Made by a program: the position numbers and the translations under genes
Shown: positions 8,492 to 31,698 of the stretch, piece after piece
How positions within the stretch are numbered: position 1 is the first letter of the stretch
How the letters are laid out: every line of letters begins with the position of its first letter
NCBI RefSeq assembly: GCF_001874525.1
Contig: NZ_LKAQ01000001.1
Location: 1-64,000 of the forward strand
Origin: Pseudodesulfovibrio hydrargyri
GTDB lineage: Bacteria > Desulfobacterota > Desulfovibrionia > Desulfovibrionales > Desulfovibrionaceae
Reading direction: 5' to 3'
Length of the DNA: 64,000 nucleotides
Notes under the pieces: model-generated
Seen by the model: the letters and a program-made list of their open reading frames with translations, nothing else
Told to the model about the DNA's origin: nothing
The model's database searches: none

Positions 8492-8804
8492 GACAGGTTA
8501 CCTCTCTCGTTAGTTGCCAAAAAAGTCATCTTGCGGACAAGATGGTCGGAGCGGACCTCCGCGGCTTTCACAATTCGGGCAATAATACCGAACAACAAAG
8601 GGGAGTCACCAAAACACATCATCCTATCGCCTGTCAAGACTGTCTATAACATACTGATTTCATATACTATGTATATATTTGGAAAGCATCTCGACCGATA
8701 CACGGAGCGTATCGATTCGGCATATCCGGCACGGGAAGCGGCCTCGCTCTACGCAAGGCCCGATATCCCTTGACTTTCGCGGTTTTCGCGGCTAAGAGGT
8801 GATC
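8492..8804. promoter_or_regulatory. divergent control region between the glutamate synthase operon and the Phe leader
   Basis: This 313-nt AT-richer gap holds no gene I can support. On the minus strand, TTGACA (8637-8632) is a possible -35 for the glutamate synthase operon, but the matching -10 is poor. On the plus strand a TATACT box lies at 8663-8668 without a clear -35. An inverted repeat CGATAC-N7-GTATCG at 8696-8714 could be an operator for the symporter unit. Confidence 0.4.
8519..8544 (-). terminator. possible attenuator hairpin in the glutamate synthase leader
   Basis: On the minus strand CATCTTG and CAAGATG form a 7-bp stem with a 4-nt loop, then AC and a run of six T, about 28 nt before the TTG start of the FMN subunit. 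The position inside the leader suggests conditional termination. I see no convincing leader peptide or competing antiterminator. Confidence 0.4.
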
Positions 8805-8894
8805 ATGCAAACGCACCACAGCCGCATCCGTTTCTTTTTCTTTTTTAGCTTTCGCTTTTTTAGAAGCGCCTGCGGTCTTACGGTGTGCGATTAG
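8805..8894 (+). CDS. phenylalanine-rich leader peptide
   Basis: A 29-codon reading frame starting at ATG 8805 and ending at TAG 8892-8894. The peptide begins MQTHHSRIR, then has Phe at eight of the next ten positions (FFFFFSFRFF), and ends RSACGLTVCD. TAAGAGGTGATC immediately upstream is almost exactly complementary to the 16S rRNA 3' end, with 5 nt between AGAGG and ATG. Eight Phe codons followed by mutually exclusive hairpins is the pattern of classical ribosome-mediated attenuation, as in pheL and pheM of E. coli. The peptide probably has no function beyond acting as a Phe-tRNA sensor. Confidence 0.85.
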   Translation: MQTHHSRIRFFFFFSFRFFRSACGLTVCD

Positions 8895-8952
8895 CTGACA
8901 AGTAGTTTCATCCACAACCAGGGCCGCAGGCGACAAGCTTGCGGCCCTTTTT
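8867..8952 (+). promoter_or_regulatory. Phe attenuator: antiterminator and intrinsic terminator
   Basis: Terminator: 8921-8931 pairs with 8937-8947 (11 bp, one G-U, loop GACAA), followed by TTTTT. Antiterminator: CGCCTGCGG at 8867-8875, just after the last Phe codon, is fully complementary to CCGCAGGCG at 8924-8932, the 5' arm of the terminator. Pairs continue through 8879/8920 with two G-U. A ribosome reaching the leader stop would cover 8867-8879 and let the terminator form. A ribosome stalled at the Phe codons would leave it free to pair. Expression of the downstream symporter should therefore rise when Phe-tRNA is scarce. Confidence 0.82.
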
Positions 8953-8997
8953 GTTTGCGGCCCAAGCGCTTCCGGCCCGCAATCAAGGGGCGACATC

Positions 8998-9132
8998 ATG
9001 ATGCTTGGATTGGGGAGTGTTGAGATCGCGCTGGCCTTCTGGCTGTCCGTTGGGGCCACGGTTCTGTGCGTCGTTTACGGAATTGTGAACTGGAACAACA
9101 AGGGCACCGACAAAACCGGAGGAGGCGAGTAA
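8998..9132 (+). CDS. symporter small accessory protein, single TM
   Basis: A 44-aa protein beginning MMLGLGSVEIALAFWLSVG. It has one hydrophobic segment (residues about 8-31), a YGIVNWN end to that segment, and a charged Gly-rich tail. Such tiny membrane proteins occur immediately upstream of Na+/solute symporter genes in Desulfovibrio-like bacteria and are annotated as symporter small accessory proteins. AAGGGG lies about 6 nt before the first ATG; a second ATG follows directly. Its stop overlaps the symporter start (TAATG), indicating coupled translation and a likely 1:1 complex. Confidence 0.85.
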   Translation: MMLGLGSVEIALAFWLSVGATVLCVVYGIVNWNNKGTDKTGGGE

Positions 9133-10739
9133 TGACCGGCAAACTCATCGGCGTCCTCATCTATCTCGGGATCATTTTCTATCTCGGCTACCGGGCCTGG
9201 CTCAAGACCCGGGAGTCCACGGACTACATGCTCGCCGGACGCAGCATGAACCCGTTCGTCCTGGCCATGTCCTACGGGGCGACCTTCGTTTCCACCTCGG
9301 CCATCGTCGGCTTTGGCGGCGTTTCGGGCATGTTCGGCATGTCCCTGCTCTGGCTGACCTTTCTGACCATTTTCGTGGGCATCTTCGTGGCCATGGTCTT
9401 CTTCGGCAAGCGCACCCGGCGCATGGGGCTCGCGCTGGACTCCCACACCTTTCCCGAATTCCTGGGCAGGCGGTACGGCTCCAAGTTCATCCAACAGTTC
9501 TCCGGCGTGGTCATCTTCGTATTCATTCCGGTCTACGCGGCCGCCGTGCTCATCGGCATCTGCCGCATGCTCGAGGTGGCTTTTCCGCTCGTGACCTACG
9601 GCGCGTGGCTGCTCATCGTCACCGCCATCGTGGCCGTGTACGTGGTCACCGGCGGGCTCAAGGCCGTCATGTACACCGACGCGTTCCAGGGGACCATCAT
9701 GGCGGTCATGATGCTTATCCTCATCGTCACCACCTATACCCTGCTCGGCGGCGTGACCGAGGCCCACCAGGCGCTGACCGACATGGTGGGCATGATCCCG
9801 GCCAAGCTGGCCAAGGGCGGCCTGACCGGCTGGACCACCGGACCGAACCTCCAGTCGCCCATCGGCCTGACCGTGTACACGACCATCATCTACGGCGTGG
9901 GCATCGGCGTGCTGGCCCAGCCGCAGCTGGCCATCCGCTACATGACCGTGCCGTCCGACCGCGAGCTCAACCGGGCCGTGGCCATCGGCGGCATCTTCAT
10001 CCTGCTCATGACCGGCGTGGCCTTTGTCACCGGGGCTCTGTCCAACGTGGTCTTCTTCCAGAAGTTCGGCAAGATCGCCATCACCATGGCCGGGGGCAAC
10101 TTCGACTCCATCATCCCGCTGTACATTGACAAGGTCATGCCCGGCTGGTTCTCCGGTCTGTTCCTGGTGGCCATGTTCGCAGCGGCCATGTCGACCATGA
10201 GTTCCCAGTACCACGTGGGCGGTACCTCGCTCTCCCGCGACTTCCTGGAACAGTACGTGACCGTGGGCAACAACGGCTCGTCCATGAAGCTCAACCGCCT
10301 CGGCGTGACCGTGGCCATCATCGCCACCCTGGTCTGGGCCTGGCTGCTGCCCGGCGGGGTCATCGCCCGGGCCACGGCCTTCTTCTTCGGCCTGTGCGCG
10401 GCTTCCTTCCTGCCCATCTACCTGCTCGGGCTGTACTGGAAAGGCATGACCAAGACCGGGGCCAAGGTCTCCATGGTCGGCGGATTCTGCTTCTCCATGT
10501 TCTGGCTGCTCTTCGTCCACGTCAAGGAAGCGGGCTTCATCGGCCTGTGCCAGGCCATGTTCGGCAAGGCCACCCTGGTGGCCGACGCCGCGCCCGGCTC
10601 CTGGATGTGGCTCATGCAGTGGGTCGATCCCAACGTGGTCGCCCTGCCCGTCTCCCTCATCCTGGCCGTGGGCGTCAGCCTGGCCACCCGACGAATTGAA
10701 GAGAAACACTTGGAACTCTGCTGGGAAGGACTCTGCTGA
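9132..10739 (+). CDS. sodium:solute symporter (SSS family)
   Basis: A 535-aa transporter with about 13 TM segments. SSS signatures include the N-terminal YLAGRSMNP-type motif (DYMLAGRSMNPFVLAMSYGA), STSAIVGFGG after it, TGGLKAVMYTDAFQG near residue 175 and MFAAAMSTMSSQ near residue 350. It should import an organic solute with Na+. The substrate cannot be read from sequence. The upstream Phe attenuator points to phenylalanine or a related aromatic compound, which is inference. The start at 9132 is set by the TAATG overlap with the accessory gene; an upstream extension in the same frame looks non-coding. Confidence 0.9.
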   Translation: MTGKLIGVLIYLGIIFYLGYRAWLKTRESTDYMLAGRSMNPFVLAMSYGATFVSTSAIVGFGGVSGMFGMSLLWLTFLTIFVGIFVAMVFFGKRTRRMGLALDSHTFPEFLGRRYGSKFIQQFSGVVIFVFIPVYAAAVLIGICRMLEVAFPLVTYGAWLLIVTAIVAVYVVTGGLKAVMYTDAFQGTIMAVMMLILIVTTYTLLGGVTEAHQALTDMVGMIPAKLAKGGLTGWTTGPNLQSPIGLTVYTTIIYGVGIGVLAQPQLAIRYMTVPSDRELNRAVAIGGIFILLMTGVAFVTGALSNVVFFQKFGKIAITMAGGNFDSIIPLYIDKVMPGWFSGLFLVAMFAAAMSTMSSQYHVGGTSLSRDFLEQYVTVGNNGSSMKLNRLGVTVAIIATLVWAWLLPGGVIARATAFFFGLCAASFLPIYLLGLYWKGMTKTGAKVSMVGGFCFSMFWLLFVHVKEAGFIGLCQAMFGKATLVADAAPGSWMWLMQWVDPNVVALPVSLILAVGVSLATRRIEEKHLELCWEGLC

Positions 10740-10766
10740 TCCGTTGTCGGATGATGTTATCGCAAG

Positions 10767-10796
10767 GCGCCGTTCCGAGAGGGACGGCGCTTTTTT
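10767..10796 (+). terminator. terminator of the symporter unit
   Basis: A 10-bp stem (GCGCCGTTCC / GGGACGGCGC) with GAGA tetraloop followed by six T, 28 nt after the symporter stop. Confidence 0.9.
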
Positions 10797-31251: not shown

Positions 31252-31698
31252 TTAGGAGAGCTTGGACCGTACCAGTCCGCTGGCCTTCTTGCCGTCGACC
31301 TGCCCTGTGTGCGCGGCGAGCAAGGCCTGCATGACCTTGCCCATGTCCGCCATGGAGGACGCCCCGAGGTCGGCGATGGCCTTGTCGATGGCGGCGGAAA
31401 GTTCCTCGTCGGACAGCTGCTTGGGAAGATAGACTTCAAGGGCGGCGAGTTCGTCGGCTTCGACCTTGGCCAGGTCGTCCCTCCCCGCCTTGGTGTACTG
31501 GTCGAAGGAGTCCTTGCGCTGCTTGACCTGCTTGGCGATGAGATCAAGCACGGTCTCGTCGGAGAGCGCGTCGCTTTTATCCTCGACCATACGGTTTTTA
31601 ATGGCCGTCTTGAGATGTCTCAAGACGGCCACTTTTACCGTAGCTTTGGCCTTGTAGGCCTCGATGTAGTCTTTGTCTATTTGCTTGGACAGACTCAT
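31252..31698 (-). CDS. GatB/YqeY domain protein
   Basis: A 148-aa YqeY-type protein, homologous to the C-terminal tRNA-interacting domain of GatB. It starts MSLSKQIDKDYIEAYKAK and is mostly helical, with YLPKQLSDEELSAAIDKAI and SMADMGKVMQALLAA typical of the family. The precise role is unknown. Such genes commonly follow rpsU in this operon, as here (3-nt gap). Confidence 0.92.
   Translation of the reverse strand: MSLSKQIDKDYIEAYKAKATVKVAVLRHLKTAIKNRMVEDKSDALSDETVLDLIAKQVKQRKDSFDQYTKAGRDDLAKVEADELAALEVYLPKQLSDEELSAAIDKAIADLGASSMADMGKVMQALLAAHTGQVDGKKASGLVRSKLS

Follow-up and report, generated by a model that had tools for sequence, protein, structure and literature searches.

In Escherichia coli, the attenuators pheL (of pheA) and pheM (of pheST) each consist of a phenylalanine-rich leader peptide, four RNA segments, an intrinsic terminator and an antiterminator formed by the pairing of segment 2 with segment 3, and the enterobacterial pheL family is represented in Rfam as Phe_leader. 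The window analysed here, a stretch of 64,000 nucleotides of the genome of Pseudodesulfovibrio hydrargyri, contains an attenuator that is alike in its phenylalanine-rich leader, four segments, terminator and 2:3 antiterminator, but it controls a transporter unit and its mRNA is predicted to be leaderless (Table 1). Searching Rfam with the attenuator of the window returned no leader family at the gathering threshold and, when relaxed to E ≤ 10, 12 matches that did not include Phe_leader; Thr_leader, the only leader family matched in the relaxed search, was at chance level (14.4 bits, gathering threshold 55). The T-box riboswitch covariance model gave no match either at the gathering threshold or in the relaxed (E ≤ 10) search.

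Two further systems share other features with it. In Streptomyces lividans several leaderless leader peptides are described, among them metL, which precedes the importer genes metNIQ and is proposed to attenuate them (PMC8079986). That system is likewise a leader peptide on an amino acid importer with leaderless transcription, but it concerns methionine and an ABC importer, and a typical Rho-independent terminator is described there as missing (PMC8079986). For the leaderless leader peptide of Sinorhizobium meliloti trpL, the 5′ end of the attenuator RNA is at the leader ATG, whereas the start in the window is only predicted, and trpL differs in responding to tryptophan and in controlling a biosynthetic operon (PMC7298713). 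No report on attenuators ahead of transporters in Desulfovibrionales was found among the papers listed by full-text searches of the open-access literature. Taken as a whole, the locus in P. hydrargyri is probably a Phe-tRNA-responsive, ribosome-mediated attenuator of a two-gene unit that most likely encodes a Na+-coupled L-phenylalanine importer, which would extend peptide-leader attenuation to a secondary transporter.

Table 1. Features of the attenuator and its two-gene unit (positions in the window) and of related leaders elsewhere in the same genome (G000, with contig).
Feature	Position	Strand	Evidence
Predicted promoter: -35 TTGACT 8770-8775, 17-nt spacer, -10 TAAGAG 8793-8798	8770..8798	+	Hexamers; position of TTGAC in relatives
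Leader peptide orf, 29 aa, MQTHHSRIRFFFFFSFRFFRSACGLTVCD	8805..8894	+	Conserved in relatives
Segment 1 ("protector"), partner of segment 2	8821..8835	+	MFE structure of the leader
Control region, 8 Phe codons in 10	8832..8861	+	Phe-rich in 58/79 readable symporter copies
Segment 2; the part 8867-8879 pairs with segment 3 (antiterminator)	8862..8879	+	
Segment 3, 5′ arm of the terminator and alternative partner of segment 2	8920..8932	+	
Intrinsic terminator, stem 8920-8948, T tract 8948-8956	8920..8956	+	Compensatory changes in relatives
Small accessory protein of the symporter, 44 aa (NF045580)	8998..9132	+	53.2 bits, cut-off 35
Symporter of the SSS family (535 aa), predicted to import Phe (aromatic amino acids) with Na+	9132..10739	+	Family match; substrate inferred
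Terminator-like hairpin 3′ of the symporter gene	10764..10793	+	
Phe leader of ADTH synthase gene (L073)	G000:C1:316616-316750		
aro-trp gene run headed by a Phe/Tyr/Trp leader (L157, L177)	G000:C4:2204000-2219200		

The original prediction described a 29-aa leader with eight phenylalanine codons in ten positions, and the same orf and codons were found (codons at 8832, 8835, 8838, 8841, 8844, 8850, 8856 and 8859). The terminator and T tract that it placed behind the leader are present, with 12 pairs scored in the stem (nine of them G-C) where 11 bp had been described, and the complementarity between 8867-8879 and 8920-8932 amounts to 13 pairs, of which two are G·U. RNA folding, named as a check, gave for 8795-8960 a minimum free energy (MFE) of -61.6 kcal/mol (z -4.7) that none of 200 shuffles equalled; this MFE structure combines a 1:2 helix (8821-8835 with 8862-8878) with the terminator. 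The arrangement of leader and terminator is real and not due to chance, because it was found in none of 468 control windows (520 nt, half-overlapping, on both strands of the remainder of the 64 kb). A short phenylalanine-rich orf of 39 aa near 31672 of the window (L070/L071) fell outside the same leader-plus-terminator rule. The phenylalanine codons of the leader orfs called are mostly TTT (456/670); the symporter gene of the window prefers TTC (33/38).

Ribosome-mediated transcription attenuation is very probably the mode of control at this locus, and the signal would be phenylalanine. RNA polymerase would begin at or beside the leader AUG. With plentiful Phe-tRNA, the ribosome would pass the phenylalanine codons, segments 1 and 2 would pair or segment 2 would be covered, and segments 3 and 4 would then form the terminator, ending transcription. 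With scarce Phe-tRNA, the ribosome would stall at the phenylalanine codons over segment 1, leaving segment 2 to pair with segment 3, so that the terminator would not form and the transporter would be produced. Folds were computed with segment 1 masked, as it would be by a ribosome stalled at the early phenylalanine codons; for RNA extending to 8933, the best one was then the antiterminator, in which segments 2 and 3 pair. Masking of the stop codon by a ribosome, or no mask at all, gave the terminator as the best fold. The terminator is still the MFE structure of the full leader RNA with segment 1 masked, and therefore antitermination must be kinetic.

The conservation of the attenuator was assessed by searching 348 genomes of the class for the symporter (E ≤ 1e-100), which was found in 71 of them at 82 places. 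One 3′ fragment was omitted and 81 places were scored, of which 79 had 520 nt of upstream sequence and two had too little. An aromatic leader followed by a terminator precedes 65 of the 79 readable copies: 58 leaders are phenylalanine-rich, six are tyrosine-rich and one is mixed Phe/Tyr (in G208, tallied as Y by the script), and the remaining 14 copies have none. The conservation of phenylalanine codons on which the original prediction staked itself is thus seen in the 58 copies, with tyrosine or Phe/Tyr codons in seven more. Among 36 genomes of the genus to which the window belongs, 30 have a leader-bearing copy, including two (G304 and G320) that also have a second copy without a leader; too little upstream sequence was present in G315 and G325, and four genomes gave no symporter match at E ≤ 1e-100. 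The best ten-residue stretch of each leader contains from four to nine control codons. Between genera the letters of the leaders vary while the plan is kept, also in two genomes of another family, whose leaders are A+T-rich. In a tree of 81 symporters, all leader-bearing rows fall inside one clade of 70 rows (support 100/94), which also includes three rows without a leader and three that were unreadable.

Together with 30 leaders of another gene (described below), the 65 symporter leaders of the census and one from a MAG (locus L040) made up a set of 96, all of which have a terminator hairpin 18-33 nt past the leader stop codon. Conservation of the alternative pairing, another check proposed at the outset, holds in most of them: in 61/66 symporter leaders and 27/30 of the others, no more than 5 out of 200 dinucleotide shuffles equalled the 2:3 duplex. 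The 1:2 duplex, which is present in the MFE structure of the window, reached the same mark in only 31/66 and 24/30, respectively. In 14 aligned leaders, 97.7% of the cells of the 2:3 helix pair, versus 41-50% if the alignment is slid by one to three columns. Changes on both sides were seen in only two pairs of the 2:3 helix, whose values in five measures are attained by 4 to 27 of 500 shuffles; in the terminator helix, compensatory change affects five pairs (15 cells, a number equalled by none of 500 shuffles), and the pair-type count is no higher than in shuffles, all of these significances being overstated because the sequences are related.

The start of the leader mRNA was predicted from the upstream sequences of the same 96 leaders. 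TTGAC lies 35-39 nt on the 5′ side of an in-frame leader ATG in 95 of them, at exactly 36 nt in 55; shuffled upstream stretches contained it in 346 of 19,200 cases. Pairing of the leader starts with the anti-Shine-Dalgarno sequence is poor (median energy -1.7; -4.5 or better in 12/96), whereas -4.5 or better was reached by all 48 pattern-recognised accessory gene starts (of 66 loci) and by 65/66 symporter starts. Given the fixed spacing of TTGAC and the ribosome site that is mostly absent, the start is predicted at the leader AUG: in all likelihood the mRNA begins at or beside 8805, which would make it leaderless. Leaderless leader mRNAs are thereby predicted for this lineage. The -10 elements are weak, and a consensus promoter scan of the window did not list the attenuator promoter. 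The original prediction probably errs in its near-perfect ribosome site, since a leaderless mRNA is predicted. The candidate sequence TAAGAGGTGATC looks like such a site (anti-SD energy -7.1), yet the predicted -10 element overlaps it, and the two nearest relatives (L098 and L099) have not kept it. The lack of a conserved ribosome-binding site at the leader starts would also suit an untranslated short orf, that is, T-rich coding noise next to a constitutive terminator whose hairpin merely ends readthrough. Such an explanation is extremely improbable, considering that several genera and two families retain phenylalanine or tyrosine codons although the flanks vary, that the alternative pairing is retained, and that the control windows yielded nothing comparable.

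The two genes downstream were described originally as encoding a 44-aa accessory protein and an SSS symporter, and both identities stand: the former matches NF045580 above its cut-off, as the latter does PF00474 (173.3 bits, gathering cut-off 22.8). The stop codon TAA of the accessory gene and the ATG of the symporter gene share one base, and the hairpin behind the symporter gene is likely the end of the two-gene unit, ahead of a dUTPase gene. The best NCBIfam match of the symporter is to TIGR02121, the model of the SSS-family proline carrier PutP (186.6 bits), far under the equivalog cut-off of 515.5; the symporter of the window also has a small accessory protein as a partner. The attenuator offers a testable substrate for this symporter that scores under all the listed NCBIfam cut-offs.

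In the same genome, a phenylalanine leader of like design (MHNNTARFFFFFSFIRNACGLGVR) precedes a gene for 2-amino-3,7-dideoxy-D-threo-hept-6-ulosonate (ADTH) synthase (TIGR01949, 404 bits, cut-off 299.45). Such a leader was found at 30 of 30 scored g1 ADTH loci, which supplied the 30 leaders mentioned above, and at three more by eye (L165-L167). The leader of a second ADTH copy contains phenylalanine, tyrosine and tryptophan codons (MNCTTVSNAYFSNFYFWYWFSHACGLGRGAV), and similar leaders occur in the four other genomes examined; a third copy has no such leader in the five genomes examined. In the aro-trp gene run, headed by this tri-aromatic leader, seven of nine scanned proteins match models at E ≤ 1e-40, namely 3-dehydroquinate synthase II, prephenate dehydratase, AroA, TrpE (below cut-off), TrpG, TrpB and TrpA. 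When a covariance model trained on seven symporter and seven ADTH leaders was used to score 150 of 1134 candidates in the genome, 14 hits were obtained at E ≤ 10, and the three best were the leaders of the symporter and ADTH synthase, both in the training set, and that of the aro-trp run, on which the model was not trained (E 1.6e-6). Next in rank, a hit at C4:374607-374687 (E 0.038) was rejected along with two weaker hits, as none of these sequences shows a phenylalanine-rich leader.

Six genomes of the Halodesulfovibrio type (g21; G057, G079, G108, G120, G142 and G151) encode a neighbouring pair of symporters, one with a phenylalanine leader (such as MNKLNTNFFFAFFGFRGIQACGSVECVRA; L056-L061) and the other with a tyrosine leader (such as MNTINHHMNSYFYAYYGYRVIKTCGSVECV; L047-L051 and L053). 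To our knowledge, a peptide attenuator that reads tyrosine is unusual. In the tree, the tyrosine-type genes form one clade (94/98) adjoining the phenylalanine type (100/99). Tyrosine leaders are absent from two further g21 genomes in which two copies occur: G132 has two phenylalanine leaders, and G021 has a phenylalanine leader on the first copy and none on the second (G021b), which lies about 100 nt behind the leader-bearing copy. The tandem paralogs with their two leaders form a natural control in which codon identity can be set against transport specificity within one organism. The residues that differ between the paralogs of Halodesulfovibrio, listed without the use of a structure, did not indicate a substrate site.

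Regulation shared with aromatic biosynthesis, together with the split between phenylalanine and tyrosine leaders, indicates aromatic amino acids as the substrate; the tyrosine-leader paralogs and the like attenuators on ADTH synthase and the aro-trp operon suggest a stronger case for transport of phenylalanine or an aromatic compound than the original prediction had. Judging from these genomic associations, phenylalanine is rather likely to be the main substrate of the symporter. The same attenuator could instead control the import of an aromatic precursor of phenylalanine (phenylacetate, phenylpyruvate or a similar aryl acid) that an aryl-CoA ligase, together with an indolepyruvate-type ferredoxin oxidoreductase (IOR), would convert into phenylalanine, a route known from archaea. 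The genome does encode the alpha subunit of an IOR (733.2 bits against a cut-off of 650.9) as well as PaaK-like ligases, of which the highest-scoring has 623.2 bits, just under the cut-off of 646.3, and the SSS family includes monocarboxylate carriers, to whose model NF058657 the symporter of the window has a weak match. In one relative (G032), a symporter gene without a leader is located behind a PaaK-like gene (545.4 bits, cut-off 646.3), but that copy is outside the leader-bearing clade. Moreover, among the candidates scored, the leader model ranks highest the leaders of the symporter, ADTH synthase and aro-trp genes and not any on those ligase or IOR genes, and the split between phenylalanine and tyrosine leaders would demand phenyl-acid and hydroxyphenyl-acid versions of the precursor, leaving precursor import unlikely. 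In the G032 locus (L171, 7398-8702), of which three genes were scanned with HMMs, LivG/LivF-like ABC genes are also ahead of the symporter gene.

A different objection is that the attenuator may answer phenylalanine starvation while the transporter carries other cargo, for example as a general nutrient importer whose attenuator was gained by chance. The 14 readable copies that lack an aromatic leader fit this idea, and in seven of their neighbourhoods, where orfs were viewed by eye, the genes look varied and share no theme; therefore, the substrate may differ among the copies without a leader. For the leader-bearing copies, unrelated cargo is very unlikely: the leader has been retained across the 70-row clade that holds every leader-bearing row, and it switches from phenylalanine to tyrosine between paralogs.

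A broader interpretation, towards which we lean with some reserve, is that the aromatic amino acid economy of Desulfovibrionales is governed by one family of leaderless attenuators with a common terminator design and differing codons: phenylalanine alone for an ADTH synthase isozyme and the Na+ symporter, phenylalanine, tyrosine and tryptophan for the aro-trp operon, and tyrosine for the sister symporter. The codons may then act as a label that spells out the substrate in a new SSS clade importing aromatic amino acids, a label that would have switched from phenylalanine to tyrosine upon the duplication of the transporter in Halodesulfovibrio. Matches to TTYTTYTTYTTY occur 40 times in the genome of P. 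hydrargyri (30 as loci and 10 within stretches), and the short phenylalanine-rich orfs near them include the symporter and ADTH leaders as well as orfs at L070/L071, L075, L078/L079, L096 and L142.
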